The notes below the pieces were generated by a model. The model worked only from the letters and a program-made list of their open reading frames with translations, did no database searches and had not been told where the DNA came from. A DNA stretch of 64,000 bases from Oscillatoriales cyanobacterium (GTDB taxonomy: Bacteria > Cyanobacteriota > Cyanobacteriia > Cyanobacteriales > Laspinemataceae), in assembly GCA_011390955.1 (NCBI GenBank), contig JAABRM010000015.1, positions 62,001 to 126,000 on the forward strand, written 5' to 3'. Made by a program: the position numbers and the translations under genes. Of the stretch, positions 40,503 to 61,412 are shown piece after piece (the first letter of the stretch is position 1; each line of letters starts with the position of its first letter).

Positions 40503-40699
40503 TGGTTGTTGGTTGTTGGTTGTTGGTTGTTGGTTGATTGTTATTTGTTGATTGTTATTTGTTCTTTGTTCTTTGTTCATTGTTCTTTGTTCAACAACCA
40601 ACCAACAACCAACAACAACCAACAAACAACCAACAACAACCAACCAAGAACCAAGAACCAACAACCAACAACCAACAACCAACAACCAATAACTAACAA
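40503..40699. repeat. Heptamer module between manC and the cupin gene
   Basis: GGTTGTT units (40503-40585, with TTGTTCTTTGTTC variants) are followed by CAACAACCAACAAC units (40592-40699). Complementary arms, as in the pha operon spacers. Confidence 0.88.
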
Positions 40700-40717
40700 A
40701 AATTATCGGAGAAAATA

Positions 40718-43583: not shown

Positions 43584-44789
43584 ATGACCATCGCTTACTT
43601 AATCAATCAATATCCCAAGGTCAGTCACAGCTTCATCCGACGTGAAATCGCCGGACTCGAAGCTAACGGCATTCCCGTGGCTCGTTTTTCCATCCGCACT
43701 TGTGCCCCAGAACTGGTTGACGAAGCTGATAAACAAGAGTTAGAAAAAACCCAAGCTATTTTAGGAATTGGTATTGCTGGATTGCTATTTGCTTTACTTC
43801 GTGTAGCCATTACCAAACCAGTTCCTTTCCTCAAAGCTTTGAGTCTAACGATTAAAGTTGGCTGGAAATCAGAACGAGGTATCTTGCGTAATTTCGCTTA
43901 CCTAGCGGAAGCTTGCGTTCTCCTCGGTTGGTGTTCCAAATCAGCAATTACCCACATTCATGCCCACTTTGGCACAAATTCCACCACTGTGGCAATGTTA
44001 TGTGAAGTGCTCGGCGGCCCACCTTATAGTTTCACCGTTCATGGACCAGAAGAATTTGACAAAGTGGAAGCGATCGCCTTGTCAGAAAAAATCAACCGGG
44101 CTGCATTTGTGGTCGCGGTAAGTTCCTTTGGCAAAAGTCAACTCTGCCGCTGGTGTAATTATGAACATTGGTCAAAAATCCATGTGATTCACTGTGGGGT
44201 AGACGAGACATTTTTAACCCAGACCCATGTCCCTGTGCCCAATGAACCGCGCTTAGTTTGTGTCGGCAGACTGGGCGAACAGAAAGGACATTTGCTACTT
44301 TTAGAAGCAGTCCGCCAGTTAGCCACTGAAGGATTAAAATTTAAGCTAATATTGGTGGGCGATGGCCCATTGCGGGAAAACATCGAGGCAGAAATTGCCA
44401 AATCTAATCTCCATGATTATATTGAGATTACCGGCTGGGCGAGTAGCACCGAAGTGCGCCAACAAATGTTGGCCTCAAGAGCCCTAGTCTTACCCAGTTT
44501 TGCCGAAGGTTTGCCCGTGGTAATCATGGAAGCATTAGCCCTGGGTCGTCCAGCGATCGGCACTTATGTGGCAGGAATACCGGAATTGGTCGAACCCGGT
44601 GTTTGCGGTTGGTTGGTGCCTGCGGGTTCCCTCGAACCCCTCACGGCAGCAATGCGATCGGCATTAACCAGCCCTGTAGAAAACCTGGAAACGATGGGTA
44701 AAATAGGGTGCGATCGGGTAGCGAGTCAGCACAATGCCCTCACCGAGGCCAAAAAATTAGCTGCCCTGTTTCACAAGTACAGCGCCTAA
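43584..44789 (+). CDS. Glycosyltransferase family 4
   Basis: 401 residues. The N-terminus IAYLINQYPKVSHSFIRREI is typical of colanic-acid-type (WcaL-like) GT4 enzymes; HAHFGTNSTTVA, FTVHGPEEFD and the donor site RLGEQKGHLLLLEAV plus FAEGLPVVIMEALALGRP (the E-x7-E motif) are visible. First gene of the polysaccharide locus on the + strand, 40 bases before the flippase gene. Linkage and sugar unknown. Confidence 0.9.
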   Translation: MTIAYLINQYPKVSHSFIRREIAGLEANGIPVARFSIRTCAPELVDEADKQELEKTQAILGIGIAGLLFALLRVAITKPVPFLKALSLTIKVGWKSERGILRNFAYLAEACVLLGWCSKSAITHIHAHFGTNSTTVAMLCEVLGGPPYSFTVHGPEEFDKVEAIALSEKINRAAFVVAVSSFGKSQLCRWCNYEHWSKIHVIHCGVDETFLTQTHVPVPNEPRLVCVGRLGEQKGHLLLLEAVRQLATEGLKFKLILVGDGPLRENIEAEIAKSNLHDYIEITGWASSTEVRQQMLASRALVLPSFAEGLPVVIMEALALGRPAIGTYVAGIPELVEPGVCGWLVPAGSLEPLTAAMRSALTSPVENLETMGKIGCDRVASQHNALTEAKKLAALFHKYSA

Positions 44790-44829
44790 TTAACTCACCA
44801 TCCCAGCATTCACACCACTAGGAACCCTA

Positions 44830-46221
44830 ATGCCTGAAACGGAACCGCAAAACCAGCCCACACAAGCAGAAACCCAGCAAGGTTCATCTTTAAAAAAGAA
44901 AGCGATTCGGGGGGCAGCTTGGACTTTATTTGGCTATGGTGGCAGTCAATCCCTGCGCTTAGTCAGCAACCTGATCTTAACTCGCCTGCTGGTTCCAGAA
45001 GTTTTTGGCCTCATGGCTTTGGTTCAAACCTTTCAAGCAGGTATATCTCTATTTTCAGACATTGGCATCCGTCCCAGCATCATCCAAAATAAGCGCGGTG
45101 ACGACCCGATTTTTCTGAACACGGCTTGGACATTGCAGGTAATTCGTGGTTTTTGGATTTGGTTTGGTTGTACCGTAATCGCTTGGCCGGTTTCCAGGTT
45201 CTATGACGATCCTAGGTTCCTTTGGCTGCTCCCCATCGTTGCCCTGAATTCAATTTTCCAGGGTTTTCAGTCCACTGCCCTAGCCACCCTCAACCGGAAA
45301 ATGGCAATTGGTAAGCTGACCATATTTGAGTTTCAGAACCAAATTGTCGGCCTGACAGTGATGATTGTTTTAGCTTGGTTTAATCGCTCAATTTGGGCGA
45401 TCGTCGGGGGAATGCTGGTGAGTGGATTTCTTAAAATGTTGTGGAGTTATCGCTTAGTTCCAGATCATGGCAATTGGTTTGCCTGGGACAAAGAATCCCT
45501 CAAAGAACTGATATCTTTCGGCAAGTGGATATTTGTATCTACCGCCCTGACATTTTTGGCAATGCAGGCAGACCGACTAATTCTGGGCAAATTATTTTCA
45601 TTTGAGATGTTGGGGGTTTATACCATTGCTTTCACTTTTGCGGATATTCCCAAACAAATCCTCGGCAGGCTTTCCGGTCAGGTTATTTTTCCGATGTTTT
45701 CGCAGCAGAAAGATATTCCTCGCCAGATCCTGAGAGAAAAAATTCTCAAAAAACGTTGGATGATTCTGGTTGCACTCGCATTGGGCTTGACTTTTCTAAT
45801 TTGCTTTGGCGATCTAATTGTATATATTTTATACGATCGAAGATACGATGCAGCCGGTTGGATACTACCAATCCTGGCTTTAGGGATTTGGCCACTGGTG
45901 CTGTGCCAGACAATTGAAAAAGCACTTTACGCTTTTGGCAAACCTTTTTATTCAGCTTTTGGTTACTTTTTCAAGTTTGTTTATATGTTGATTGCATTAC
46001 CCCTAGGTTTTTCCCTGATGGGCGTTATGGGATCTGTAATTGTTGTAGCTCTAAATGATATTCCGTTCTATGTGTTAGTAATGTACGGTCTGTGGAGAGA
46101 AAAGCTCACTGTTATCCATCAGGATATTCATGCTACGGTATTACTAATTGGACTAATCGCTGTTATTTTGATATGCCGGTACAATTTAGGTTTTGGGTTA
46201 CCAATTGATGGTATTTTATGA
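44830..46221 (+). CDS. Polysaccharide flippase (Wzx/MOP family)
   Basis: 463 residues with about 12 hydrophobic segments. The N-terminal KKKAIRGAAWTLFGYGGSQSLRLVSNLILTR-like region (about 21-52) and TRLLVPEVFGLMALVQTF identify the oligosaccharide flippase branch of the MOP superfamily. It would move lipid-linked repeat units across the cytoplasmic membrane. Between GT4 and the polymerase-like gene, matching a Wzx/Wzy-dependent locus. Confidence 0.88.
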   Translation: MPETEPQNQPTQAETQQGSSLKKKAIRGAAWTLFGYGGSQSLRLVSNLILTRLLVPEVFGLMALVQTFQAGISLFSDIGIRPSIIQNKRGDDPIFLNTAWTLQVIRGFWIWFGCTVIAWPVSRFYDDPRFLWLLPIVALNSIFQGFQSTALATLNRKMAIGKLTIFEFQNQIVGLTVMIVLAWFNRSIWAIVGGMLVSGFLKMLWSYRLVPDHGNWFAWDKESLKELISFGKWIFVSTALTFLAMQADRLILGKLFSFEMLGVYTIAFTFADIPKQILGRLSGQVIFPMFSQQKDIPRQILREKILKKRWMILVALALGLTFLICFGDLIVYILYDRRYDAAGWILPILALGIWPLVLCQTIEKALYAFGKPFYSAFGYFFKFVYMLIALPLGFSLMGVMGSVIVVALNDIPFYVLVMYGLWREKLTVIHQDIHATVLLIGLIAVILICRYNLGFGLPIDGIL

Positions 46222-46344
46222 AAAAAATAAGTTAATTAATACACTTAACCCAAGGATGTTTAAACTAAGGATTGATAAAGGTAAATCCTACAGTAGTTTT
46301 AATGTGATTTCGCAATTTTGGATAATCTTCACTGCTTCTAATCC

Positions 46345-47799
46345 ATGACTCCTCAAGCCCAACTGGCGATGATCGCTTGGTTGCCGATTGTCTTCTACTT
46401 TTTTACCCGCTATCCACCTCGGACGGCGGTGATGGTTAGCTTCCTCGGTGGATTGATGTTCCTGCCACAACGGGGGGCCGGGTTTTCTCTCCCCGTAATA
46501 CCCGACTATAAGGGAATGGCCGCCACTTGCTATGGCATTCTGTTGGCTCTGGCTGTCTATGATTCTGAACGGTTTAGTTCTTTGAAACTGGGCTGGACAG
46601 ATATCCCAATGCTGATTTGGTGCATTTCTTCTTTTTTGGCCTCAATGAGTAATGGTTTGGGGGCTTACGATGGCTTTAACGAAAGTCTCACCACAACAGT
46701 CACCTGGGGATTGCCCTATTTTCTGGGGCGATTATATTTCACTAATTTGGATACCCTAAAGGAATTGGCGATCGGCATTCTTAAGGGCTGCCTGATCTAT
46801 GTTCCCCTCTGCATTTGGGAAGGTCGCATGAGTCCCAACTTGCACTTGATGGTTTACGGCTACTGGGCTCATTCATCTGGCCTCCTTCAATCCATCCGTT
46901 ATGGTGGATATAGACCGAATGTATTTATGGCACACGGTCTGATGGTGGGGCATTGGGTGATGACTGGTACATTGATCGGCATTTGGCTGTGGCAAGCTGG
47001 GGCGATCAAGGAAGTATGGGGAAAGCCCATGAACATCCTGGTCTGGGTGATGCTGTTTACCGTGGTCTGGAACCGATCCACAGGTGCCTATGGCTTGATG
47101 GTTTTGAGTTTAGTAATCTTATTTATAGCCAAGCATTTGCGGACATCTTTACCTGTGTTACTGATTATCTTTGGATTATCTTATTACTTATACGCAGGAG
47201 TCACGGGAACATTTGCCGGGGATGAGATTGTTCATTGGATATCGGAGAATATTAATCCAGAACGAGCTCAGTCCCTGGAATTTAGATTTAATAACGAAGA
47301 ACTACTTGCAGAAAAAGCACGGGACAGAATAATCTTTGGCTGGGGAGGCTGGGGCCGCAACCGCGTGTATGATTATGACTGGAAGGGAGACCTGGTTGAT
47401 ATTTCCGTCACAGATAGTATGTGGATTATCGCTTTTGGTACTCGTGGAGTCGTCGGTTTAGCCAGTGTCACTGCATCCCTCCTATTGCCTGCGGCGGTCT
47501 TTTGTTTTCATTATCCAGCCAGCACCTGGCTGAAGCCCAGGGTGGCTCCAGCCGCCTCAATGGCAGTGAGCGTCGTACTATTTATGTTTGACTCGGTTTT
47601 GAATAATATGTTTAATCCCATATTTCCCCTGATTAGTGGCGGGCTATCTGCTTTGGTACTGAAACCCCCCGAACCACTCAATCCGAAAAAGAAGCGCAAC
47701 CAGGGGTCATCAGTGGCCGTCACTTCCAAGGTGCAAAGCCGACCAAACCAACAAAGAAGGTTATCTCGCAGGCGATCGGTCCAGCATAACCGTAGATAA
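46345..47799 (+). CDS. O-antigen polymerase/ligase-like membrane protein (Wzy-type)
   Basis: 484 residues with about ten hydrophobic segments and a large outward loop at about 295-360 (WISENINPERAQSLEFR, then DRIIFGWGGWGRNR), the layout of Wzy/WaaL proteins. The C-terminus is a basic tail (NQQRRLSRRRSVQHNRR). The neighbour of the flippase supports a polymerase role. Polymerase and ligase cannot be separated from sequence alone. Confidence 0.78.
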   Translation: MTPQAQLAMIAWLPIVFYFFTRYPPRTAVMVSFLGGLMFLPQRGAGFSLPVIPDYKGMAATCYGILLALAVYDSERFSSLKLGWTDIPMLIWCISSFLASMSNGLGAYDGFNESLTTTVTWGLPYFLGRLYFTNLDTLKELAIGILKGCLIYVPLCIWEGRMSPNLHLMVYGYWAHSSGLLQSIRYGGYRPNVFMAHGLMVGHWVMTGTLIGIWLWQAGAIKEVWGKPMNILVWVMLFTVVWNRSTGAYGLMVLSLVILFIAKHLRTSLPVLLIIFGLSYYLYAGVTGTFAGDEIVHWISENINPERAQSLEFRFNNEELLAEKARDRIIFGWGGWGRNRVYDYDWKGDLVDISVTDSMWIIAFGTRGVVGLASVTASLLLPAAVFCFHYPASTWLKPRVAPAASMAVSVVLFMFDSVLNNMFNPIFPLISGGLSALVLKPPEPLNPKKKRNQGSSVAVTSKVQSRPNQQRRLSRRRSVQHNRR

Positions 47800-47841
47800 A
47801 CATAAAACCTTTGATGTCGTTTATATGAGAGTTAAATTTTT

Positions 47842-48798
47842 ATGTCCTCAGATTCATCTTTAATTAATCAACCTATTTTTCTAGTTGGTGCGGAACGTTC
47901 AGGGACGACAGTATTGCGGCTAATGCTAGATCACCATCCACAGATTGCGTGGTGCAATGAGTTTGAATATGCCGTCGATCGCGTTTCTGAAACGGGAGAA
48001 TGGCCAAATCTCCATCAATATTATGATTGGTTAGCAGATCATCGCATATTTTTGGCCACGGGTTTTGAGATCGATCGCGCCTTGACCTACCCTCAACTGG
48101 TCAATAGTTTTTTAGTTCAAAAGCGCGATCGCGAAAACAAACCGATCGTCGGTGCCACAGTTCATCGTCATTTCGATAGATTACTACGCATCTGGCCTGA
48201 TGCCCGATTTATTCATCTGCTTCGGGATGGCAGAGATGTGGCCAATTCCTGTATCGTCATGGGCTGGGCGGGTAATTTGTGGACTGGTGTTGAACGTTGG
48301 ATCGAAGCTGAATGTTTGTGGGAAAATCTCAGCGATCGGGTTCCCGCCGAACGGAGAGTTGAGATCACCTATGAAAATCTAATTTCAGAACCCGTGAAGA
48401 CGCTGACTGACCTGTGTGATTTTATTGGGGTGCCTTATAACGAAGCAATGCTGAGTTATAGTGACAAAACTACCTACGATTTGCCCGATCCGAAATTTAC
48501 TCAGCAGTGGCGACGCAAATTTTCTGATGCTCAGATTCAGTTGGTGGAATCAAGGATTGCAAATATGCTGAAGGATCGGGGCTATGAACTGAGTGGTTTA
48601 CCCATAATTAATATTAGTTCCCTGACCCAGAAACGACTGAGATTACAAGACTGGTGGTATCGTTGGAATTTTCGACTTCAGCGCTATGGCCTGCCCCTGT
48701 TTGTTTCAGATTATCTATCACGAAATCTTGGGATTGTGTCATGGCAGAAACAAGTCAGACAGGAAATTATTGCCATAGAAAAACGCCACATTAAATAG
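47842..48798 (+). CDS. Sulfotransferase family protein 1
   Basis: 318 residues. The 5'-phosphosulfate loop FLVGAERSGTTVLRLMLDHHP is near residues 11-31, and the 3'-phosphate site ARFIHLLRDGRDVANSC near 117-133. It transfers sulfate from PAPS, most likely to a sugar of the exported polymer given the neighbours. CDFIGVPYNEAM near residue 191 and a basic C-terminus are typical. Forty-two bases after the polymerase gene. Confidence 0.88.
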   Translation: MSSDSSLINQPIFLVGAERSGTTVLRLMLDHHPQIAWCNEFEYAVDRVSETGEWPNLHQYYDWLADHRIFLATGFEIDRALTYPQLVNSFLVQKRDRENKPIVGATVHRHFDRLLRIWPDARFIHLLRDGRDVANSCIVMGWAGNLWTGVERWIEAECLWENLSDRVPAERRVEITYENLISEPVKTLTDLCDFIGVPYNEAMLSYSDKTTYDLPDPKFTQQWRRKFSDAQIQLVESRIANMLKDRGYELSGLPIINISSLTQKRLRLQDWWYRWNFRLQRYGLPLFVSDYLSRNLGIVSWQKQVRQEIIAIEKRHIK

Positions 48799-48887
48799 CA
48801 TTGTTCCCAGGGCGATAGAACTTATCATCTGTCATTGTTTTTTGCCTTTTTTGTCGATTATGCTCAACTTTAACTCTATAAATACTC

Positions 48888-49853
48888 ATGCGCCTTGCTA
48901 TAGTCATCGTTAACTATCGCACCCCCAACCTGACGATCGACTGTTTAGCTTCACTGCAAACTGAAGTCGAAGTCGGGCAACATTCTGTTGTTGTTGTAGA
49001 CAATGCCTCTGGGGATAATTCCGTAGAGCAAATTCAGCAGGCAATTACGGCAAATAACTGGAGTGAATGGGTAAAGGTTGTACCCTCACCAGTTAATGGC
49101 GGTTTTTCCGCTGGCAACAATTTGGGCATTAAAGCTGTCACCGCAGATGCTTATCTGTTATTAAATAGTGACACGATTGTCCGACCAGGCGCGATCGCCT
49201 CTCTAATCAAAGCAATGGAAACTCATCCCCAAGCGGGTCTAATTAGTCCGCGCCTAGAATGGCCGGATGCTACTCCCCAAATTAGCTGTTTTCGATATCG
49301 TTCCCCTGTCAGTGAACTGATTGCTTCTGCCGCAACTGGGCCAATTACTCAACTGCTGAATAGTTATGATGTCCCCATTCCTGTATCCGATGAAGCGATC
49401 TTCCCAGAATGGACTAGCTTTGCCTGCGTCCTGATCCGACGGGAGGTGATTGACCAAATTGGCTTGATGGATGAAGGGTATTTTATGTATTTCGATGATA
49501 TTGATTATTGTCGCATGGCCAGGAATGCGGGCTGGAAAATTCTCCATTGGCCGGAAGCCAGAGTCGTTCACCTCCGGGGCGGCAGTAGCCCGGTGAAAGC
49601 GGCAATGGCTGCCCGTAAACGGCCAAAAGCCTACCTCTACGCTTCTAGAACTCGTTACTTCACCAAATTCTATGGCTATACTGGACTTTGGATGGCCAAC
49701 CTGCTTTGGTTAGCGGGTCGGAGTATCTCACTGGTGCGCGAGGTGGTGGGCAACAAACAGCCACATACCTGCGAGTCTGAATCTACTGATATTTGGATCA
49801 ACTGGCGCAACCCGATGAAACCGCCGGTACTACCTGGGAGTGAAAATACATGA
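48888..49853 (+). CDS. Glycosyltransferase family 2 (rhamnosyltransferase-like)
   Basis: 321 residues. GT-A fold: IVIVNYRTPNLTIDCLASL at the N-terminus, VVDNASGDNSV, metal-binding LLLNSDTIVRPGA, then the late EGYFMYFDDIDYCRMARNAGW that is typical of rhamnosyltransferase-type GT2. The stop codon overlaps the next gene start (ATGA), so the two are translationally coupled. Acceptor unknown. Confidence 0.9.
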   Translation: MRLAIVIVNYRTPNLTIDCLASLQTEVEVGQHSVVVVDNASGDNSVEQIQQAITANNWSEWVKVVPSPVNGGFSAGNNLGIKAVTADAYLLLNSDTIVRPGAIASLIKAMETHPQAGLISPRLEWPDATPQISCFRYRSPVSELIASAATGPITQLLNSYDVPIPVSDEAIFPEWTSFACVLIRREVIDQIGLMDEGYFMYFDDIDYCRMARNAGWKILHWPEARVVHLRGGSSPVKAAMAARKRPKAYLYASRTRYFTKFYGYTGLWMANLLWLAGRSISLVREVVGNKQPHTCESESTDIWINWRNPMKPPVLPGSENT

Positions 49854-50740
49854 GTAATTGTCCTGACTTTATCATCATCGGCGCGATGAAATGCGCCACC
49901 AGTAGCCTACACGAGCAACTCGCTTTGCAGCCGGGCATTTTTATGACCGAGTTGAAAGAACCCAATTTTTTCAGTAATGATGAGCAATATAACCGGGGAA
50001 TGGAATGGTATCTATCTCATTTCGCGCCAGCCAAACCCGACGATATCTGCGGCGAATCTAGTACCCACTATACAAAGTTACCTACTTATCCCCAAACCAT
50101 CGATCGCCTTCTCCAGCATTTTCCTAATGTCAAGCTGATTTATGTGATGCGCCATCCCATCGATCGCCTGGTTTCACAATATATTCACGAGTGGACTGAA
50201 AAAGTAATTTCTGTAGGTATTAATCAGGCAGTTAATGAGTATCCAGAATTGATTGCTTACAGCCAGTACAGTATGCAGCTAAAGCCATATTTTGACACCT
50301 TTGGTCAAGAGCGAGTGCTGCCGGTCTTTTTTGAAAGAATGATCGCCCATCCCCAGCAAGAATTAGAACGAGTTTGTCGGTTTATTGGTTACGAGGGAAA
50401 ACCGGTCTGGGATGATGAATTGAACGCCCAAAATGTATCCACAGAAAGAATGCGTCAAAGTGGGTGGCGTGATTTCTTGGTTGAAGCACCAGGACTCAAG
50501 CAGCTTCGCCGCTGGTTCATCCCCAAAAGCTTCCGCACTTGGGTGAGAAGTTTATGGATGATGAAAAAGAAACCAGAGCTAGAACCCCAACAGATAGAAA
50601 AATTGCAGGCTATTTTTGATGAAGATTTGGCAACACTCGGTTCTTGGTTGGGGATTTCCCTCTCTTGTAAAAATTTAAAAGCGGTGGTGAAACATGATCC
50701 AAGAGATTGGGTTGCGCTACCAAAACAGGAGGCGAAATGA
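49850..50740 (+). CDS. Sulfotransferase family protein 2
   Basis: 296 residues, of the heparan N-deacetylase/N-sulfotransferase-like group. 5'-PSB loop IIIGAMKCATSSLHEQLA near 9-26, LKEPNFFS, CGESSTHYTKLP, and 3' site LIYVMRHPIDRLVSQY near 99-114. Start and stop overlap both neighbours by ATGA, so it is in the middle of a tightly coupled trio (GT2, sulfotransferase, acetyltransferase). Confidence 0.9.
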   Translation: MSNCPDFIIIGAMKCATSSLHEQLALQPGIFMTELKEPNFFSNDEQYNRGMEWYLSHFAPAKPDDICGESSTHYTKLPTYPQTIDRLLQHFPNVKLIYVMRHPIDRLVSQYIHEWTEKVISVGINQAVNEYPELIAYSQYSMQLKPYFDTFGQERVLPVFFERMIAHPQQELERVCRFIGYEGKPVWDDELNAQNVSTERMRQSGWRDFLVEAPGLKQLRRWFIPKSFRTWVRSLWMMKKKPELEPQQIEKLQAIFDEDLATLGSWLGISLSCKNLKAVVKHDPRDWVALPKQEAK

Positions 50741-51264
50741 ACAAATCAACCACGAATCTGGAATCAGAGACAGTTCGACAAATTTCGGCTACGGAACCCG
50801 ACTGGGAGCGGGAAAAACTTACTTGTTGGTGGGATCCCAGCCGCCAATTGCTTAAATCGATCCGGGGATATCAAAAGTGGCACGATCGCGGCGATCTATT
50901 GGGAAGCTTGGTTTCTGCGCTTAAAGTCATTGAATATCGTTTTTGGACGGTTGTCACGGCCACGGATATTCCCCTGAACTGGCGATTTTCCGGGGGTTTA
51001 AGACTACCGCATCCGACTGGTGTAGTGATTCACCCCAGCGTGGAGATCGGACCAAATTGCATGATTTTTCAGCAGGTGACAATTACTAAAGGGGTGAAAA
51101 TTGGCGGTCATGTGGATATTGGCGCGGGGGCAAAAATTCTCGGTCCTGTCACCATTGGAAACTATGCTAAAATTGGGGCAAATGCTGTGGTGCTTTGCGA
51201 TGTGCCTGAAGGGGCAACAGCGGTTGGGGTGCCAGCAAAAATTATAAATTACACTATTTCTTAA
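50737..51264 (+). CDS. Hexapeptide-repeat O-acetyltransferase (CysE-like)
   Basis: 175 residues from the ATG at 50737, which has AGGAGG seven bases upstream and overlaps the preceding stop. C-terminal left-handed beta-helix repeats: TGVVIHPSVEIGPNC, GVKIGGHVDIGAGAKI, GPVTIGNYAKIGANA, ending GVPAKII. It resembles serine acetyltransferase family members found in polysaccharide loci, lacking a full CysE N-terminal domain, so it may acetylate a sugar rather than serine. The alternative is O-acetylserine synthesis. Confidence 0.85.
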   Translation: MNKSTTNLESETVRQISATEPDWEREKLTCWWDPSRQLLKSIRGYQKWHDRGDLLGSLVSALKVIEYRFWTVVTATDIPLNWRFSGGLRLPHPTGVVIHPSVEIGPNCMIFQQVTITKGVKIGGHVDIGAGAKILGPVTIGNYAKIGANAVVLCDVPEGATAVGVPAKIINYTIS

Positions 51265-51391
51265 AATTAGTTCATAAAAGTTAAATAACATCGATGAAAA
51301 AAATCTGAAAAAACTAAGGATATAATTTATCCATCCTTGAAATGACAAAATTGCAATTAATCAAACTACTACAGATAAATAGAGGCGGTTG

Positions 51392-52276
51392 ATGGTAAAC
51401 AAGCGAATTCCTAATTTATTTATTGTCGGATCAATGAAATCGGGAACGACTTCTCTCCACAATTACTTAGACACTCATCCCAATATTTTTATGAGCCAAA
51501 AGCCGAAGGAAACGCAATATTTCGTGGAAGAACTGAATTGGTCTAAGGGTGAAGATTGGTATTTAAGCCTGTTTGATGCAGCAGGCAGTAATGTTACAAT
51601 TATTGGTGAATCATCAACCGATTACACCAAACTGCCTCTTTACCAAGGTGTTGTTCAACGCATTGCTGATTTCAACCCAGAAGCCCGGATTATCTACATC
51701 ATGCGGGATCCGGTAGAACGTAGTATTAGCAACTACTGGTGGCAAGTACAATATTCCGCTGAAGGTCGTGATCTGCTGACAGTGATGAAAAAAGTTAAAG
51801 ATATCACAGATATCAGCTACTATGCCATGCAAATCAAACCATACATCGAGACGTTTGGTCGAGAACAGGTCATGGCATTAACCCTAGAGGAACTCAAGAC
51901 TGCGCCTATTAAAACTCTGAAAAACTTGTTTGATTGGCTGGGGGTTGATTCCTCTTTTGTTCCGCCTAGCTTAGAAGAACGCTATAATGTTTCTCCAAAA
52001 GCCGTTCCCACAGTTAGAGGTTCCCGGATAATTTCTCAACTGCGCGGGACTCCTGTGTGGGATTGGCTTAAGCAATCAATTCCACAATCGACAAAACAAA
52101 AGTTAATGAAAATACTTTCTCGACCTGTTGACCGTGACGAAAGTTATGTAGAAGCAACGATTGAGTATCTACGACCGATTCAGCAAAAACAGACTGAAGA
52201 ACTCTGTCAGTTACTTGGTCGTGACTTTCCTGAATGGAAAACTTTATATGGCACTAAGAGTTTTTCCCAAATTTAA
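51392..52276 (+). CDS. Sulfotransferase family protein 3
   Basis: 294 residues from the ATG at 51392 (GAGG upstream). LFIVGSMKSGTTSLHNYLDTH near 9-29 is the PAPS loop, KETQYFVEE and GESSTDYTKLP follow, and the 3'-phosphate site is IYIMRDPVERSISNYW. Similar in plan to sulfotransferase 2 but clearly diverged. The C-terminal ELCQLLGRDFPEW is the family's usual end. Likely acts on the same polymer at another position. Confidence 0.9.
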   Translation: MVNKRIPNLFIVGSMKSGTTSLHNYLDTHPNIFMSQKPKETQYFVEELNWSKGEDWYLSLFDAAGSNVTIIGESSTDYTKLPLYQGVVQRIADFNPEARIIYIMRDPVERSISNYWWQVQYSAEGRDLLTVMKKVKDITDISYYAMQIKPYIETFGREQVMALTLEELKTAPIKTLKNLFDWLGVDSSFVPPSLEERYNVSPKAVPTVRGSRIISQLRGTPVWDWLKQSIPQSTKQKLMKILSRPVDRDESYVEATIEYLRPIQQKQTEELCQLLGRDFPEWKTLYGTKSFSQI

Positions 52277-52481
52277 AAATTCTAATCATTAAGTTAGGCC
52301 AAAAATATTTCTCTTGTGCTAATTTCAATAGGATCGAGATTTTGTTTTTTAGAGAATAATAGCTATTTTAGCGGATAAAATCGGAAAACAAAATCAATAA
52401 ATCAAGATATTTATGAAATATTTGGCCAAACAAGATATATTGTTTTTGAACCATGAATAATTCAGTGAAAAACATCAATAA
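52277..52481. other. Non-coding spacer before the sulfotransferase remnant
   Basis: AT-rich, no open frame of note and no recognisable signals. Confidence 0.5.
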
Positions 52482-52688
52482 AGCATCGAGCGAATGTGTG
52501 ACTTTGTTGGGGTAAATCGATTTACAGAAACTTCAACTAATACCATTTACAAAAATTCATACAACATTAGGGTCGCTTCGGCTTGCGCTCATGCATTGGG
52601 GCGACCACAGGGGGAAAAACTTGTCCCAGATATTGCTGAACTTGAAAAACTTTTGGGGTGGGATTGTTTAACCTGGGTAACTGATTGA
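52482..52688 (+). pseudogene. Sulfotransferase C-terminal remnant
   Basis: A 69-codon open frame right after a stop codon. It reads SIERMCDFVGVNRFTETSTN, like the region after the 3'-phosphate site of sulfotransferases, then a stretch that matches a MITE end (52540-52566) plus palindromic DNA, then KLVPDIAELEKLLGWDCLTW, like the family C-terminus. Two short sulfotransferase pieces thus flank inserted repeat DNA. The N-terminal two thirds are absent. Probably a dead gene; a short expressed peptide cannot be excluded. Confidence 0.65.
52540..52566. mobile_element. Solo copy of the 13591-13732 MITE end
   Basis: ATACCATTTACAAAAATTCA and six further bases match the inverted ends of the MITE-like element at 13591-13732 (closest to its right end). 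No partner end is seen nearby. It lies inside the sulfotransferase remnant. Confidence 0.65.
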
Positions 52689-52709
52689 GGATCAAAAATA
52701 AACCAAAAA

Positions 52710-53735
52710 ATGAAAAAACAATCTTCTGTGGTTGTCAGTACGCCTTTTACTAACAACAACTGGAAATGGTTTGCTCCTTCGTTTGATGACAAACAAATTC
52801 ACTGGAGTTTTTACTGCGAGAAACCCCAGGGATTCATAGAAAAGTATATCCGCCAGCCCAATCTGGCAATGATCCGTACTTGCCGAGAGGCAGTCAAGGC
52901 TACTCAAAAAAATCATGTTGACTTGCTTTTTACTCACGACCCGCGAGTTTCCTTCTGGTGTGCTTTTTTTGCGGAAAGGTTAGGGGTAAAAACAGAGCAT
53001 ATTGCTTATTCCTTTAACTTTCCCGATCTGCCTCGTGGTCTTAAGCGCCGTTGGATGACCTCGGCGTTCAAAAATATCAGTCGGTTCATTGTCTATTCCA
53101 CGATGGAAAAGCAGCTATACCACGACTATTTTGGGATCCCATTAGAGCGGATTGATGTTGTGCTATGGAGTGTCGGAACACCAGAAGTATCTCCGCAAGA
53201 ACCCTTGGAATCAGGGGATTATATTTGTGCGATTGGTGGTAATGCCCGAGACTACCAGACATTGATGGCGGCAATGGAAAAACTGCCGGATATTCCCTTG
53301 GTGCTTGTAGCCAGACCCCATAATCTCAAGAATCTGAATATTCCATCTAATGTCAAAGTTTTGGTGAATATTCCCAAACCTCATGCAATGAATATTATCA
53401 AGCACTCTCGGTTTATGGTACTCCCATTGACGGGTTCGGAAGTTCCCTGTGGTCATGTTACTTTGGTGGCGGCCATGCATCTGGGGAAAGGGTTTATTAT
53501 TACTAATTCCAGTGGAGTGAGCGATTATGTTTTCCATGACCATAATGCCGTCACTTGTGAAGCCTTTTCAGCGGATGCTTTGGCTGATGCAATTAGCAGT
53601 CTCTGGAAAAATCCCGATAAATGTCAGCAGCTTGGCGAAAATGGCTTGAAATTTGCCCAAGAACACTGTTCAGAGGCATCGGCTCGTGAACATTTACGCA
53701 ATTTATTGGTAGAAAGAAAGTTATTATTGGATTGA
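52710..53735 (+). CDS. GT-B glycosyltransferase (family 4-like)
   Basis: 341 residues. The N-terminal half has VDLLFTHDPRVSFWCAFFAE and GLKRRWMTSAFKNISRFIVYS; the C-terminal half has YICAIGGNARDYQTLMAAM and VPCGHVTLVAAMHLGKGFIIT, in the place of the GT4 donor-binding region, and KCQQLGENGLKFAQE. A divergent GT4-like enzyme; the canonical E-x7-E is altered. On the + strand with the rest of the locus and followed by a hairpin terminator. Confidence 0.78.
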   Translation: MKKQSSVVVSTPFTNNNWKWFAPSFDDKQIHWSFYCEKPQGFIEKYIRQPNLAMIRTCREAVKATQKNHVDLLFTHDPRVSFWCAFFAERLGVKTEHIAYSFNFPDLPRGLKRRWMTSAFKNISRFIVYSTMEKQLYHDYFGIPLERIDVVLWSVGTPEVSPQEPLESGDYICAIGGNARDYQTLMAAMEKLPDIPLVLVARPHNLKNLNIPSNVKVLVNIPKPHAMNIIKHSRFMVLPLTGSEVPCGHVTLVAAMHLGKGFIITNSSGVSDYVFHDHNAVTCEAFSADALADAISSLWKNPDKCQQLGENGLKFAQEHCSEASAREHLRNLLVERKLLLD

Positions 53736-53739
53736 TGAA

Positions 53740-53784
53740 AAATTAGCTCTGGGGAGCAATTTGCTGGAATAGAGCTAATTTTAC
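53740..53784 (+). terminator. Terminator-like hairpin
   Basis: AAATTAGCTCT (53740-53750) pairs with AGAGCTAATTT (53771-53781), followed by TACTG, five bases after the glycosyltransferase stop. The T-run is short. Confidence 0.65.
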
Positions 53785-53850
53785 TGTCGATAAGGGCTTG
53801 CTGGTGAGGGCGCTTTCCGATGAAACTAAACTGATTTATGGTTCAACGCA

Positions 53851-53901
53851 ACGGTGACAGCTAGGAGAAATATTTGAAGACTCCTAGCTGTTGGCAACCG
53901 T
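53851..53901. repeat. Hairpin between glycosyltransferase and glycoside hydrolase-like gene
   Basis: ACAGCTAGGAG / CTCCTAGCTGT arms with a 13-base loop, extended by ACGGT/ACCGT. It may be a second terminator or an untranslated RNA structure upstream of the next gene. Nothing else is seen in 53785-54042. Confidence 0.6.
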
Positions 53902-54042
53902 CAATTTTGAATAGTGACTATGGGTTTAAAAGAGCATTACACATCTCCACAAATTAGATATCAAGCCTCGCTCGATCTGGAGTGACAGTCAATTATTGGA
54001 GATGTCTATTAAAAATTATTGATGGTTTTATAATAGTAATTA

Positions 54043-55803
54043 ATGAAAATAATATTTGGGCAAAATTTAAGAAAAATAGCTGAGATTATTCCCGGAGTAA
54101 TGTTTTTATTCTTCGGGTTACTCAGTTTCGTGTTAATTTCTTCATGGATATCCAAAAATATCATAAATACCTCCCATAATACTACCAATTTATCTCAAAT
54201 AGATAGTCCGCCAATGGCTATATCTCAGGCCAGAGGATCTAATCAGTTAGCTGTGGGGACTAACCTTAACCGAATTGCAGATTGGTCAACGCAAATGCCA
54301 TTTATCGATGCTTTCAAATCCTCTAGGAAATGGATTACTCAATGTCAAGCTAAAGAACCAGGATGTAGTGGGGCTTGGGGTACTCAAGAATTCGATAAAT
54401 TAGATTTAGATGAATATGGGTGGGTGAAATCTTTACCAAAGCCAGAAGATCCTCCGGAATATACTCGTGTTGGGACATTGCTATTTACAGGTGTCGAACG
54501 GTATCCGACAGGAAAGTATGTGGTGCTTTATGAGGGAGAAGGGAAGATAGAATACAAGTTTGATGCTCGTAAAGATGAAACCGTCTCGGTTCCAGGCAGA
54601 GATGTAATTGATGTGACTCGATCGAAAAAAGGGATCTATCTCATTATTACGGAGACAGATCCTCGGAGAACGGGCAATTATATTCGCAATATCCGCGTGC
54701 TTCCGGCAGATTATGAAGCAACCTACACAACGGAATTATTTAATCCTAAATTTTTAGCAAAAATTAACCAGTTTAAAGCTCTGCGGTTTATGGACTGGAT
54801 GAAGACAAATAATTCTGAGCAAAAAGAATGGAGAAACAGACCGACAGTAAACAAGGCATCCTACGCATACGGTGGTGGCGCTCCCATAGAAATTATGGTA
54901 GAACTGACCAATCGTCTCCAGGTCGATCCGTGGTTCAATATGCCACATCAGGCAACGGATGAATATTTGACTAATTTTGCTCGTTTGGTGAAGGAAACAG
55001 TAGATCCAAATTTAACGATTTATGTGGAATATTCTAATGAGGTGTGGAATCCTCAGTTTAAACAGTTTCACTGGGTGAGAGATAATGGCCCGATTCCAGG
55101 AGGGAAAACATCATTTCAGCCATTAGGGGTTCGCACCTCTCAAATGTGCGATATTTGGAAGGGTGTGTTTGGCAAGGAAAGTCACCGAGTTAAGTGTGTG
55201 ATGGGGACTCAAACAGCTAATCCTTGGGTCGCTGGTCAAGTGCTGAATTGCGATCGCTGGTCAGAAGCTCCTTGCTACGAACATGGAATTGATGCTCTGG
55301 CAATTACCGGATATTTTAGTGGCAGACTAGGGAAGCGCGAACATGAACAGACGATCATGGGTTGGCTGAACGATCCAACCATTGATGAATTTGCGATGGC
55401 AATGACTCAATTGAAGGATGGCACTGTATTGGCAACGGAGGGGGACAATACGTCAGATTTATTGGAGCGGTTTACTAAATATTCAGAAATAGCTAGGGAA
55501 AAAGGGTTAGAATTAGTTGTTTATGAAGGGGGGAGTCATGTGGTTGGCATCAGAGGAGTAGAAAATAATCAGAAAATTACAGAATTTTTTATAGAGTTGC
55601 ATCGTAGACCAGAGTTTTACGATCGCTACATGGAAATGCTAAATGCATGGAAAAATACCCCAGGAAACCGGACTTTGTTTATGCACTTTTCAGATATCGG
55701 TCGTCCGAGTAAATGGGGCAGTTGGGGGGCTTTGGAATCTGTTTACCAACAAAGTTCGCCGCGATCCGATGCGCTGATGGATTTTATCCAGCAAAATAAT
55801 TGA
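54043..55803 (+). CDS. Membrane-anchored glycoside hydrolase-like protein
   Basis: 586 residues. One N-terminal membrane span (about 15-37) suggests an extracytoplasmic enzyme. Residues about 70-230 form a beta-rich domain; about 235-580 look like a clan-A TIM barrel: FMDWMKTNN, then IYVEYSNEVWN with candidate acid/base Glu333, and ELVVYEGGSH with candidate nucleophile Glu495. I cannot assign a numbered family; similar proteins are often annotated as cellulose-binding or hypothetical. In this locus it could trim or release the exported polysaccharide. Confidence 0.65.
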   Translation: MKIIFGQNLRKIAEIIPGVMFLFFGLLSFVLISSWISKNIINTSHNTTNLSQIDSPPMAISQARGSNQLAVGTNLNRIADWSTQMPFIDAFKSSRKWITQCQAKEPGCSGAWGTQEFDKLDLDEYGWVKSLPKPEDPPEYTRVGTLLFTGVERYPTGKYVVLYEGEGKIEYKFDARKDETVSVPGRDVIDVTRSKKGIYLIITETDPRRTGNYIRNIRVLPADYEATYTTELFNPKFLAKINQFKALRFMDWMKTNNSEQKEWRNRPTVNKASYAYGGGAPIEIMVELTNRLQVDPWFNMPHQATDEYLTNFARLVKETVDPNLTIYVEYSNEVWNPQFKQFHWVRDNGPIPGGKTSFQPLGVRTSQMCDIWKGVFGKESHRVKCVMGTQTANPWVAGQVLNCDRWSEAPCYEHGIDALAITGYFSGRLGKREHEQTIMGWLNDPTIDEFAMAMTQLKDGTVLATEGDNTSDLLERFTKYSEIAREKGLELVVYEGGSHVVGIRGVENNQKITEFFIELHRRPEFYDRYMEMLNAWKNTPGNRTLFMHFSDIGRPSKWGSWGALESVYQQSSPRSDALMDFIQQNN

Positions 55804-55843
55804 AAGGGGGAAAATTGGAGAACTGGCGAACAGGAGGTAAGCA

Positions 55844-56041
55844 GTGAACAAAGTCGGATTATTGGCCATTGGCCGGAATGAAGGCGATCGCCTACGCCAA
55901 TGCTTAGTTTCAGTCATTGGCAGAGTAAATACCTTGGTCTATGTGGATTAGGGTTCTACTGATAACAGCCTAGAAATGGCTCGTTGCCTGGGGGTAGAGG
56001 TCGTAGAACTTGACCTATCTATCCCCTTTACTGCTGTTAGC
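55844..56041 (+). pseudogene. Truncated 5' copy of the GT2 gene at 58909
   Basis: GTG at 55844 with AGGAGG upstream opens a frame reading VNKVGLLAIGRNEGDRLRQC, matching the GT2 protein at 58909-59979. About 50 bases are identical; then the copy diverges, acquires an in-frame TAG (VYVD-stop where the intact gene has VYVDSGS) and loses similarity after PFTA near 56036. So it is a dead fragment that keeps the original ribosome site and start. Confidence 0.85.
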
Positions 56042-56116
56042 AAAAATTTTTCAGGAACCCATATATTTGTTATCCAAAGCCCCCAAAGCATTTTTGAACG
56101 GGAAATTGGGAAAATT

Positions 56117-57265
56117 TCAAGAGATATTCAACTTTTCCAACAATAAGGCTCGACGCTTGGCGGCAACTTTGTCCCAGGTAAATTCTTGTGCTCTCTGGCA
56201 AGCTGATGTGCCATATTGAGTTCGCAAATCAGAGGAATCAACCAACTTTCTTAGGGACTCTACCCAAGCATCCTCATCGTAAGGATCGAGAATTATCCCA
56301 TCAATCCCATCTCGCACAATGCCACCAGACCCCATCGGTGATGTGAGAATGGGCAAACCATGAGCCATTGCTTCATACATCACCAGTGGACTGCCTTCCT
56401 CTAGACTGGGAAAGGCAAAAATGTCGGCTTCGCGATAGGCATAAGCGTAATTTTTACTACTGTAGCCAATATGAACAACGTCAGGACGGGATAAAAGGTC
56501 ACCACAAGTTTCGGCAATGGCCGGTTCCATGTGGCCGAACAGGATCAGACGTCCCTGGATGCCCGATCTCTTCCAAGCACGCAAGAGCAAGTGAACCCCT
56601 TTTCTCACACAAATGGTTCCCAGAAACAGCACTTTTACAGTATTGTCCGATGATTTTTCCGCTGATATTGTAGTGGCAAACCTCTTTGGATCCCAGCCAT
56701 AGCTAGTTAGGATCAGCTTACTGTCTGGAACTCCCGCATCTTGAAATGATTTCTTAACTTCTGGACTTGGACAAAAGATGAAATCTGCTAGGTCTGATGC
56801 AATTTTTTCTTTACGAATTTTTTCTTGAGTAGGAATCCGTGAATTTTCCAGAGAAATTCCTAAATTTTGGTAAGCTTTATCCATGATATGCTTACTATAA
56901 CCAGTATAGGTGTTAATCCTTTCTAGTACAATGGGTTTGTCTTTTTGTTTGATTTTGTTCAAACTTTCTAGAGAAATTTCTGGCCATAAATAAGCAACAT
57001 CAAAATTTTTAATGTCCTGTAAAAATCTTTTTTCTGTGATACTATTTGTCAAATCTTTAGAGTGGAAGAATCGATAATAGAATTTTTGGAGTATTGGCGG
57101 TATCGCCTCTACCATATTGGATATCCTACAGCCAGGGTCACAGCTAGAAAATACCATTCGAGTCTGAATGTCAGTGTTCTGCCATTCTTGGCACAATGAA
57201 AATAAGGCATGACTTGCGCCTCTATTGGTACAGTGAATGGGATATACAGAACCGATCTTAAGCAT
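56117..57265 (-). CDS. Glycosyltransferase family 4
   Basis: 382 residues. Donor-binding half: ILTSYGWDPKRFATT, VLFLGTICVRKGVHLLLRAWK and FPSLEEGSPLVMYEAMAHGLP with the E-x7-E motif. N-terminal SVYPIHCTNRGASHALFSL. On the reverse strand with the epimerase gene (41-base gap), inside a segment flanked by direct repeats of a GT2 gene. Composition is more AT-rich than the left part of the locus, in keeping with separate acquisition. Confidence 0.9.
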   Translation of the reverse strand: MLKIGSVYPIHCTNRGASHALFSLCQEWQNTDIQTRMVFSSCDPGCRISNMVEAIPPILQKFYYRFFHSKDLTNSITEKRFLQDIKNFDVAYLWPEISLESLNKIKQKDKPIVLERINTYTGYSKHIMDKAYQNLGISLENSRIPTQEKIRKEKIASDLADFIFCPSPEVKKSFQDAGVPDSKLILTSYGWDPKRFATTISAEKSSDNTVKVLFLGTICVRKGVHLLLRAWKRSGIQGRLILFGHMEPAIAETCGDLLSRPDVVHIGYSSKNYAYAYREADIFAFPSLEEGSPLVMYEAMAHGLPILTSPMGSGGIVRDGIDGIILDPYDEDAWVESLRKLVDSSDLRTQYGTSACQRAQEFTWDKVAAKRRALLLEKLNIS

Positions 57266-57306
57266 ACTAAAAAATACCTTATTGAGATAAAAAAATTTTT
57301 TTTATG

Positions 57307-58224
57307 TTATACAATATGATTCCAGGTTTTTACTAAACCATCTTTTAATTTTACTTTGGGTTGCCAGCCATATATCTCATACGCTAACTGATTTGACAAA
57401 ATGTTAGTTTTGACATCTCCTGGTCTTTCAGGAATATACGTTTTATGTATTTTTATTCCAGAAATATCTTCGATAGCGGTTACAATTTCCATCACACTAT
57501 AGCCAACTCCAGAGGAAATGTTGACAATAGAACTTCCTGATTTTTTTGCAGCGATTAACAAAGCCTCAATCACATCATCAATATAGATATAATCTCGAAT
57601 TGCGTCTCCTTTGCCATAAATTTTTATGTTTCGATTATAGTAAGCACACCCCATAGCTACTGCAATAATTCCTTGGATGCCCAAAAGTTTTTGTCCAGGA
57701 CCGAATGGATTGGAAATTCGCATAACGTTGACATCAATTTCCCTAGATCGGGCATAAAAGTTAAGGTAGTTTTCAATCGTTAATTTACTTTGACCATACG
57801 CTGATTTCGGGACAAGGGGATGATCTTCAGAAATAGGAATTTTTTTAGGCTCCCCATAAATTGTTCCACCGGAAGAAGCATAAACAATTTTTTTTACTCC
57901 ATTGGCAAGGCATATTTCCACCAATCGAATAGTTGGAATCAAATTAGAAAATACATCGTAAACACTACTTTCAATGGTCATACTGGGAAAAGTCGTGGAT
58001 ATCAGATGAAACACTGTATCAATTCCTTGCATTGCTGTTCGCAGTGCTACATCATCCATGAAGTCTCCATAGACAATATCAAGATTGTCTAAGATATCTT
58101 CTATGTTCCTAATGGAGGAACTGGATCGAGTGAAAATTCTCGTGTTTTCACCGCGAGCCACTAATGCTCGTGCCAAATTTCCTCCAATAAATCCGGATCC
58201 TCCTAGAATCAGATACTTTGCCAT
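57307..58224 (-). CDS. NAD-dependent epimerase/dehydratase (UDP-glucose 4-epimerase-like)
   Basis: 305 residues, extended short-chain dehydrogenase. NAD motif GGSGFIGGNLARALV at 8-22, catalytic SSGG near 116, YGQSK (Tyr-x3-Lys) near 142, and the RISNPFGPGQ that typifies sugar-nucleotide epimerases. It supplies a nucleotide sugar, possibly UDP-galactose or a relative, for the polymer. Pairs with the reverse-strand GT4 gene. Confidence 0.88.
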   Translation of the reverse strand: MAKYLILGGSGFIGGNLARALVARGENTRIFTRSSSSIRNIEDILDNLDIVYGDFMDDVALRTAMQGIDTVFHLISTTFPSMTIESSVYDVFSNLIPTIRLVEICLANGVKKIVYASSGGTIYGEPKKIPISEDHPLVPKSAYGQSKLTIENYLNFYARSREIDVNVMRISNPFGPGQKLLGIQGIIAVAMGCAYYNRNIKIYGKGDAIRDYIYIDDVIEALLIAAKKSGSSIVNISSGVGYSVMEIVTAIEDISGIKIHKTYIPERPGDVKTNILSNQLAYEIYGWQPKVKLKDGLVKTWNHIV

Positions 58225-58908
58225 TACTAAACTCCAATATGCTATCGAATATACTGGCTAAATAAAAATATTATTAAGCGATTTAAACCATATCTAACTG
58301 TTTTTATTGACAAGAATTATTTTTTTATTAATAAATCAAAATCTAAAATTTTACTTTTCATTTGTTCTATAGAAGCATTTATTTTTTAGTTATATTGAAC
58401 AAAATTTATTTGCCTTTTAAATGAGATTAAGATCGAAAAAATATTTTTTCGCTTATTATATATCGATCGGCTATAAGATTTTTTTTTATTTTTTTATTTT
58501 TTTTTATTTTCTGATTATTTATCAATTAGCCTCCAAACAACTTTAATTGCGATCTTGGTGTCCTATCAGGTTAAACAACTTTAATCAATATGCCAAAAAT
58601 TTCTATATAATCAGTAAATCCCTATTAGATTAGTTTATATCATTATTTTTTTAATTAACTTAATTAAAACTAATTAATCGATCGGATGTTAGCTCAGTTA
58701 TATCACTAATTGGTTATATAAATATTTGTTTTTATAATTCGCATTTTTGTACTACCCAATCATAGTCTAGTTTATTAATGTATAAGGTTTATATTATAGC
58801 TTAAGCAATAATATTTTCAGGAAAATAAATTTTAAGTTCAAGGTATCATAATTTTTTTGAGAATATTTAATACGCTATTTAATCCACTCCCAATGATTGT
58901 ATAGTTAA
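58225..58908. other. Very AT-rich spacer
   Basis: About 680 bases with long T- and A-runs (for example around 58480-58515) and no convincing gene; markedly more AT-rich than neighbouring genes. It separates the reverse-strand epimerase gene from the forward GT2 gene and forms the right part of the putative inserted cassette. Confidence 0.65.
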
Positions 58909-59979
58909 TTGTATGTGTTACTTCTGAAAAAATCAAGTGCTGAACAATTGGAAGGAAAATTAAATCAAGTCGGATTGGTGGCCATTGGCCGGAATGAAGG
59001 CGATCGCCTACGCCAATGCTTAGTTTCAGCGATCGGCGTGGTAGATACTGTGGTCTATGTGGATTCGGGATCCAGCGATCGCAGCGTGGAAATGGCTCGT
59101 TCCCTGGGGGCAGAGGTAGTAGAACTTGACCTATCGATTCCCTTTACTGCCGCTCGTGCCAGGAACGCTGGATTTGAGCATTTGCTCAAAGTAGCTCCAG
59201 ACACCAAATATGTTCAATTTGTGGATGGAGACTGCGAGATAGTACCGGGGTGGCTGGAGAAAGCCGCAGGGGAACTCGATGCTAGACCTGATGTGGCCTT
59301 AGTTTGCGGTCGCAGGCGCGAACGCTTTCCCGAACTCTCTATATATAATAAGATGTGCGACATCGAGTGGGACACCCCAGTTGGCGAAACCAAATATTGT
59401 GGTGGGGATACCATGATGCGGGTGGCAGCCTTCCAAGAAGTCGAGGGTTTTAATCCCACTTTGATTGCGGGAGAAGAACCAGAACTCTGCGTCCGCTTGC
59501 GGCAGAAAGGTTGGAAAATTTTCCGTCTGGATGCAGAAATGACCCTGCATGATGCCCAAATGACTGCTTTCGGTCAGTGGTGGAAGCGAACTATGCGGTC
59601 TGGTCATGCGTATGCGGAAGGAGCCTGGTTACATGGTCAACCTCCAGAACGCCATTGGGTCAAAGAAAGCCGCAGTATTTGGGTTTGGGGGTTAATTTTA
59701 CCAATACTGGCATTGGGAATTGCATGGCCATCCCACGGATTTTCCTTGTTGTTATTGGCGGGCTACCCGATTAGTACCTATCGGACTTATCGTTATTATA
59801 TGCAGGCTCAGGGTTTGGCCTCGAAGGACGCCGCCCTTTATGCGGTGTTTTGCACTCTGGGTAAATTTCCCCAGGTACGGGGTCAGATGCAGTTTCACTT
59901 CAACCGATTATTAGGACGCCGCCGGTATTTGATTGAATATAAGACCAGCACCCCGGTAGAACCAGCCAGTACCCAGTAA
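58909..59979 (+). CDS. Glycosyltransferase family 2, membrane-associated
   Basis: Up to 356 residues; a stop codon at 58906 means the start must be TTG 58909, GTG 58915 or TTG 58948, and none has a clear ribosome site. VAIGRNEGDRLRQCLVSAIG, YVDSGSSDRS and the metal-binding FVDGDCEIVPGW show a GT2 fold; two membrane spans near 260-300 follow EPELCVRLRQKGWKI. A homologous truncated copy at 55844 has the good start (GTG with AGGAGG) that this copy lacks. Probably still functional if initiation occurs. Confidence 0.85.
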   Translation: MYVLLLKKSSAEQLEGKLNQVGLVAIGRNEGDRLRQCLVSAIGVVDTVVYVDSGSSDRSVEMARSLGAEVVELDLSIPFTAARARNAGFEHLLKVAPDTKYVQFVDGDCEIVPGWLEKAAGELDARPDVALVCGRRRERFPELSIYNKMCDIEWDTPVGETKYCGGDTMMRVAAFQEVEGFNPTLIAGEEPELCVRLRQKGWKIFRLDAEMTLHDAQMTAFGQWWKRTMRSGHAYAEGAWLHGQPPERHWVKESRSIWVWGLILPILALGIAWPSHGFSLLLLAGYPISTYRTYRYYMQAQGLASKDAALYAVFCTLGKFPQVRGQMQFHFNRLLGRRRYLIEYKTSTPVEPASTQ

Positions 59980-61225: not shown

Positions 61226-61252
61226 ATTTTTTGTTTGAGTAAAGCTACCGGA

Positions 61253-61347
61253 TAGAGGATAGAGGAGAGAGGGGGCAGAGGAGCGGGGGGGGCAGAGGAG
61301 CGGAGGGGCAGAGGAGCGGAGAGGCAGAGGAGCGGAGGGGCAGAGGA
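61253..61347. repeat. GCAGAGGAGCGGAGGG 16-base array
   Basis: About five tandem copies with small variations upstream of the membrane GT2 gene. Complementary in type to the CTCCTCTG array at 29206-29276. Confidence 0.85.
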
Positions 61348-61412
61348 GATCAATTATCAATTATCAATTATCAATTATCAATTATCAATTATCAATTATC
61401 AATTATCAATTG
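61348..61412. repeat. (CAATTAT)n heptamer array
   Basis: About nine near-perfect copies of CAATTAT ending just before the adhesin stop region. Period seven, related to the ATTGATA array at 8080-8118. Confidence 0.9.

Follow-up and report, generated by a model that had tools for sequence, protein, structure and literature searches.

Gene content of the locus

The window analyzed here is a 64-kb stretch of DNA, bases 62,001–126,000 of contig C83 (139,912 bp), from an assembly of 7.12 Mb in 113 contigs, which its relatives and its genes identify as cyanobacterial. Its right-hand part carries a group of glycosyltransferase, flippase, polymerase, and sulfotransferase genes, many of which are homologous to genes of the xss cluster on plasmid pSYSM of Synechocystis sp. 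PCC 6803, which makes the sulfated exopolysaccharide synechan (PMC8205485). All pSYSM xss proteins were compared with the window by tblastn and global alignment. The features of the locus, with window coordinates, strand, identity to the Xss protein, and supporting evidence, are as follows.

39438–41125, plus: ManC-type mannose-1-phosphate guanylyltransferase and mannose-6-phosphate-isomerase cupin (PF00483/PF22640, PF01050)
43584–44789, plus: GT4 glycosyltransferase, XssI homolog, 60.8% (Pfam, tblastn, global alignment)
44830–46221, plus: Wzx flippase, XssH homolog, 59.2% (PF13440, tblastn/global alignment)
46345–47799, plus: Wzy-type polymerase, XssF homolog, 60.9% (weak PF04932, alignment to XssF)
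47842–48798, plus: sulfotransferase ST1, XssE homolog, 58.2% (PF13469, 121.5 bits; tyrosyl-protein sulfotransferase relatives in the PDB)
48888–49853, plus: GT2 glycosyltransferase, XssB homolog, 64.0% (Pfam, alignment)
49850–50740, plus: sulfotransferase ST2, XssA homolog, 67.8% (PF00685, 78.8 bits; PDB 3rnl and heparan sulfate sulfotransferase relatives)
50737–51264, plus: CysE/EpsC-like hexapeptide transferase, putative O-acetyltransferase, no xss counterpart (PF00132)
51389–52276, plus: third sulfotransferase ST3, about 35% to XssA, no synechan counterpart (PF13469/PF00685, PDB relatives)
About 52479–52690, plus: possible remnant (weak) of an XssA/ST3-type sulfotransferase C terminus, 64 codons (family HMM)
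52710–53735, plus: GT4-like glycosyltransferase, no xss counterpart (PF00534)
54043–55803, plus: membrane-anchored glycoside hydrolase (GH)–like protein, clan GH-A by predicted fold (AlphaFold model, fold matches, co-occurrence)
55844–56056, plus: decayed 5' fragment of a second xssM-type GT2 gene with an in-frame TAG (comparison with xssM)
56117–57265, minus: GT4 glycosyltransferase (Pfam)
57307–58224, minus: NAD-dependent sugar epimerase/dehydratase, GalE-like (PF01370)
58909–59979, plus: GT2 glycosyltransferase, XssM homolog, 60.8% (Pfam, alignment)
60005–61360, minus: GT2 membrane glycosyltransferase, XssO homolog, 48.5% (alignment)

A sequence-only reading of this DNA had proposed a sulfated exopolysaccharide locus between 43584 and 59979. 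The open reading frames that it named are present, and Pfam supports its GT4, Wzx, GT2, and hexapeptide transferase assignments and adds a second GT4; the two ATGA overlaps that it reported are exact, at 49850 and 50737. Its placement of the genes on one strand holds from the first GT4 gene to the GH-like gene and again for the GT2 gene at 58909–59979, but the genes at 56117–57265 and 57307–58224 lie on the opposite strand. The locus also reaches beyond 59979, as far as the xssO homolog. Adjoining that gene, a large opposite-strand open reading frame (61424–64000) leaves the window; by eye only, it has the look of a filamentous-hemagglutinin-type exoprotein. On the other side, the genes at 39438–41125 would provide GDP-mannose near the locus, to which we infer a functional link.

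Orthology to the synechan cluster

Synechan bears sulfate and has mannose among its sugars. Blooms of Synechocystis form only if xssA, B, F, H, K, M, N, and P are functional, and mutation of these genes suppresses EPS (PMC8205485). The window holds homologs of eight Xss proteins (XssI, H, F, E, B, A, M, and O) at 48–68% global identity, six of them collinear with the synechan cluster (I-H-F-E-B-A here, against xssI-H-(G)-F-E-(C)-B-A in the reference). The XssH and XssF orthologs align over nearly their full length. When the polymerase and ST1 were searched against plasmids by tblastn, pSYSM was recovered at 63% and 58% identity, respectively. With ST1 matched to XssE and ST2 to XssA, the likeness to synechan guessed at in the sequence-only reading turns into a statement of orthology.

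The two systems share, as orthologs, a GT4 enzyme, Wzx, Wzy, two sulfotransferases, and three GT2 enzymes. The present locus has in addition ST3, the hexapeptide transferase, a second GT4 enzyme, the GH-A–like protein, and the opposite-strand GT4 and epimerase genes; tblastn finds no homolog of the GH-like protein on pSYSM. Judged by these gene sets, the locus is orthologous to a known type and enlarges on it, with a new component that is real but putative.

The remainder of the xss set is missing from the locus. Nothing in the 64-kb window matches XssC, G, J, K, L, N, P, or Q, and homologs of xssC, G, K, N, P, and Q, as well as a dedicated xssR/S pair, are found neither there nor in the 13.9 kb downstream; the cluster, taken as the window and this downstream stretch, is therefore without the PCP (XssK), the priming transferase (XssP), and XssN. 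The only XssR and XssS matches in the window fall on a sensor kinase at 15735–19178, distant from the locus. These absences mean that both the repeat unit and its regulation must differ from those of synechan. As far as gene content goes, the pathway is an xss system whose genes are scattered and whose regulation is its own; its repeat unit is probably other than that of synechan.

Control of the cluster by XssQ was considered and rejected. Neither an XssQ/R/S module nor an XssQ box upstream of cluster genes is found at the locus. The XssQ box, AAGTTNNAC, occurs 11 times in the window, which is the frequency expected by chance; two of the boxes lie inside the locus, both within the xssM copies and none in front of cluster genes.

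Sulfotransferases and other putative decoration

All three sulfotransferases described as intact score above the Pfam cut-off (PF13469/PF00685), and their assignment as PAPS-dependent enzymes stands, in that sequence searches return true PAPS sulfotransferases as their PDB relatives. For ST2 and ST3, these relatives include the solved sulfotransferase 3rnl (E = 6e-26 and 7e-25) as well as heparan sulfate sulfotransferases; for ST1, they include tyrosyl-protein sulfotransferases and the sulfotransferase domains of polyketide synthases. The PAPS-loop and 3'-phosphate motifs align with XssE and XssA. For ST3, the ATG at 51392 is a likelier start than the TTG at 51389. The hexapeptide transferase is nearest to EpsC/CysE, below cut-off, and recurs in related loci. 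Together, ST3 and this acetyltransferase-like protein suggest more decoration of the polymer, which would be sulfated and may be acetylated.

Decayed and possibly decayed sequences within the locus

The sequence-only reading also listed a decayed sulfotransferase, which we retain as a possible one. The segment at 52479–52690 is matched by nothing in blastx and phmmer searches against all fetched open reading frames or in a Pfam scan, but an XssA-type family HMM gives it 3.6 bits and ranks it above 1000 shuffles of itself (best of 1001). The clear pseudogene in the interval is not a sulfotransferase but the truncated, TAG-interrupted xssM copy at 55844–56056. This copy and the xssM homolog at 58909–59979 flank the two opposite-strand genes, as if the gene had been duplicated locally and other DNA inserted between its two copies.

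Such features could be taken as signs that the locus as a whole is decaying and that its polymer is no longer made: one xssM copy is broken, there is the weak sulfotransferase remnant, and opposite-strand genes occupy 56117–58224. The core genes, however, are all open, of normal length, and with conserved motifs, and an intact xssM is among them, which makes general decay very unlikely.

Pathway components encoded elsewhere in the genome

Wza, Wzc, and an initiating transferase had been predicted to lie outside the window, and the genome does encode candidates for them: three OPX/Wza genes, one Wzz/PCP gene that passes its Pfam cut-off, and five priming-transferase genes. The single Wzz/PCP gene, whose product is 31% identical to XssK, sits near an OPX gene on contig C61. 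The five priming transferases have homology to XssP and are spread over contigs C60, C62, C46, C50, and C40; those on C60, C62, and C46 are the best candidates for the priming step. Homologs of XssN are encoded on C18 (65%) and C3 (60%). XssQ homologs (36–37%) occur only on C5 and C106, and the stretches read on these two contigs contain no XssR/XssS homologs beside them.

The lack of OPX and PCP genes in the locus, with initiating and export genes elsewhere, leaves room for a different product, such as an O-antigen–like LPS chain or a capsule, in place of a free sulfated exopolysaccharide. In the same direction, the sole Pfam match of the Wzy-type protein, below cut-off, is to the O-antigen ligase family PF04932. 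Against this reading, the protein is 60.9% identical to XssF, without which Synechocystis forms no blooms and its EPS is suppressed (PMC8205485), and in the synechan system, as in the present genome, OPX is encoded outside the cluster. We consider another surface glycan improbable, although less so than decay of the locus, and retain a sulfated exopolysaccharide as the likely product.

A predicted clan GH-A protein

The product of 54043–55803 has 586 residues and one long N-terminal hydrophobic helix, a likely anchor. Neither single nor profile searches connect it to Pfam, to NCBIfam (searched with the window member), or to the sequences in the PDB. A profile built from 73 relatives also retrieves nothing from the PDB, and Pfam recognizes none of these relatives. 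Its AlphaFold model (mean pLDDT 91) is a TIM barrel whose first strand is separated from the remainder by a beta-rich insertion (residues ~128–221). Foldseek returns GH10 and other GH-A enzymes, with GH10 prominent, and VIA-align gives Z scores of ~20–26 over ~270–310 residues to GH51, GH79, GH39, and GH10 chains, GH51 ranking first by Z. The protein is hence placed in clan GH-A by its predicted fold. No single named GH family is assigned, since the fold matches are scattered across several GH-A families; the protein may belong to an existing CAZy family.

Two glutamates never vary across the 73 aligned sequences, which share 34–62% identity: E333 (in SNEVWN), directly after the β4 strand (326–330), and E495 (in YEGG), within the β7 strand (490–498). 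In the model, they are predicted to sit where clan GH-A keeps its acid/base and nucleophile. The invariance of both catalytic positions argues against an alternative in which the protein binds or scaffolds the polymer, or acts as a transglycosidase that attaches it to another surface glycan, without being a hydrolase. In favor of such a role, we found no tested member of the family, a fold comparison gives a clan and not an activity, and the beta-rich insertion is an added feature of the barrel. We regard this alternative as rather unlikely, yet as the most credible of those discussed here. The clan GH-A model, taken with the linkage to the polymerase described below, makes a trimming enzyme dedicated to the polymer more likely.

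A degenerate-pattern scan of named genomes located at least 587 stretches encoding relatives. The best 80 of these are mostly cyanobacterial, with others from Anaerolineae, Acidobacteria, and several proteobacterial groups. The domain is also seen in proteins of 1000–1800 residues or in tandem arrays (loci L113, L124, L116, L142, and L158), with four copies in Waterburya (L116); the family thus extends beyond the anchored single-domain form.

Linkage of the GH-like gene to the XssF-type polymerase

Among 149 genomes of the order, the GH-like protein is encoded in 39 and an XssF-type polymerase in 42, with both in 35. The polymerase is thus present in 35 of 39 genomes with the GH-like gene compared with 7 of 110 without it (Fisher p ~ 1e-22, odds ratio 129, phylogeny ignored), and both genes occur in 15 families. 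A phylum-wide sample, which overlaps the first, gives 13 of 15 and 9 of 277, respectively. The two genes lie within 30 kb of each other in 20 genomes, often as neighbors, and in nine are separated by less than 1.3 kb; in the other 15 of the 35, they are not within 30 kb or are on other contigs. One further observation is that in another genome (G134, contig C27, 8878–10509), an XssF-type polymerase gene and a GH-like gene have decayed side by side; contig C9 of that genome still carries another GH-like copy.

Across the neighborhoods one set of genes recurs, I-H-(G)-F-GH-(E)-B-(A)-M, with an order that changes from one to the next. A detectable sulfotransferase is present in only 8 of the 17 GH-plus-Wzy neighborhoods read, which indicates that the GH-like gene tracks the polymerase and not sulfation. 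Sulfation looks like an optional decoration of the XssF-type pathway.

Proposed pathway and comparison with known systems

Homology to a pathway tested by mutants makes a sulfated polymer produced via Wzx/Wzy the most likely output of the locus. We propose that this is a synechan-type Wzx/Wzy locus for a sulfated polymer that the GH-A enzyme processes (probability about 0.8). A priming transferase encoded elsewhere would start a lipid-linked repeat unit, which the XssI, B, M, and O homologs and the extra glycosyltransferases would extend. Sulfation by the XssA and XssE orthologs and ST3 would take place in the cytoplasm with PAPS as donor, possibly along with O-acetylation, before the XssH homolog flips the unit and the XssF homolog polymerizes it. 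Export could proceed via the PCP/OPX pair on C61. The GH-A enzyme, held by its one helix at the inner membrane and facing the periplasm, may trim, release, or edit the polymer, much as PslG acts on Psl. The scheme is built on the observed homologies and gene order, the predicted GH fold with its conserved glutamates, and the polymerase–GH linkage; its chemistry (sulfation, acetylation, and hydrolysis), its export partners, and the sequence of its steps are inferred.

PslG, encoded in the psl locus of Pseudomonas aeruginosa, is an inner-membrane GH whose hydrolytic activity contributes to Psl biosynthesis (PMC6813494). In both cases, a membrane-associated glycosidase or glycosidase-like protein is encoded with an EPS pathway; the family described here differs in having no sequence match to solved structures or to a Pfam model, and it keeps an N-terminal helix as its likely anchor. 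PslG is not among the fold matches listed, which does not count against the likeness. The closest precedent found for a sulfotransferase and a glycosidase in one Wzx/Wzy cluster is wps-1 of Actinoplanes missouriensis, with Wzx/Wzy, two sulfotransferases, and a GH26 glycosidase (PMC13390465). Its host is an actinomycete, however, and its glycosidase is assigned to GH26; the likeness lies in the gene content as described for wps-1.

Within the searchable literature, the synechan pathway is the sole one of this kind for a sulfated polysaccharide that has been worked out with both mutants and chemistry. Its core is now seen to be widespread, and the variant here combines more sulfotransferases with a conserved glycosidase-like partner of the polymerase. 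A wider reading, to which we give even odds, is that the GH-A–like protein represents an unnamed glycosidase family and a standard but overlooked processing enzyme of the cyanobacterial XssF-type pathway, lost from or never on the synechan plasmid. If this partner does trim the polymer, it would provide a means to influence both how long the chains of sulfated EPS grow and how they are released, as well as an enzyme with which to cut such polymers.

Diverged xss-type sets with sulfotransferases are also found on Rhodobacterales plasmids (L181, L182, L183, L187, and L188), at ~25–36% identity. A plasmid of Jannaschia sp. W003 carries I, H, N, E, F, B, A, M, and P types, a further xss-type set is on Rhodovulum sp. 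P5, and the sets on a Rhodobacter sp. CZR27 plasmid and on pTB2 of Roseobacter denitrificans are accompanied by homologs of the GH-like protein. In common with the present system, these sets have XssI/H/F/B/M/P-type genes and sulfotransferases, but they differ in having an XrtD exosortase (on all four plasmids) and VPLPA-CTERM genes, and in carrying the GH-like domain within longer "calcium-binding" or hypothetical proteins. A literature search found no paper joining the terms roseobacter, sulfotransferase, exosortase, plasmid, and polysaccharide. Sulfated polysaccharides among bacteria have been stated to be exclusive to cyanobacteria (PMC8205485, PMC13390465). The plasmid sets suggest sulfated EPS outside cyanobacteria, which the wider reading above would then predict, and those of marine Rhodobacterales make the statement directly testable.

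Elsewhere in the window, two adjacent open reading frames of equal length (1100–1759 and 1777–2436, 219 codons) have a 9-base motif in common at the same offset and are probably a tandem duplication.
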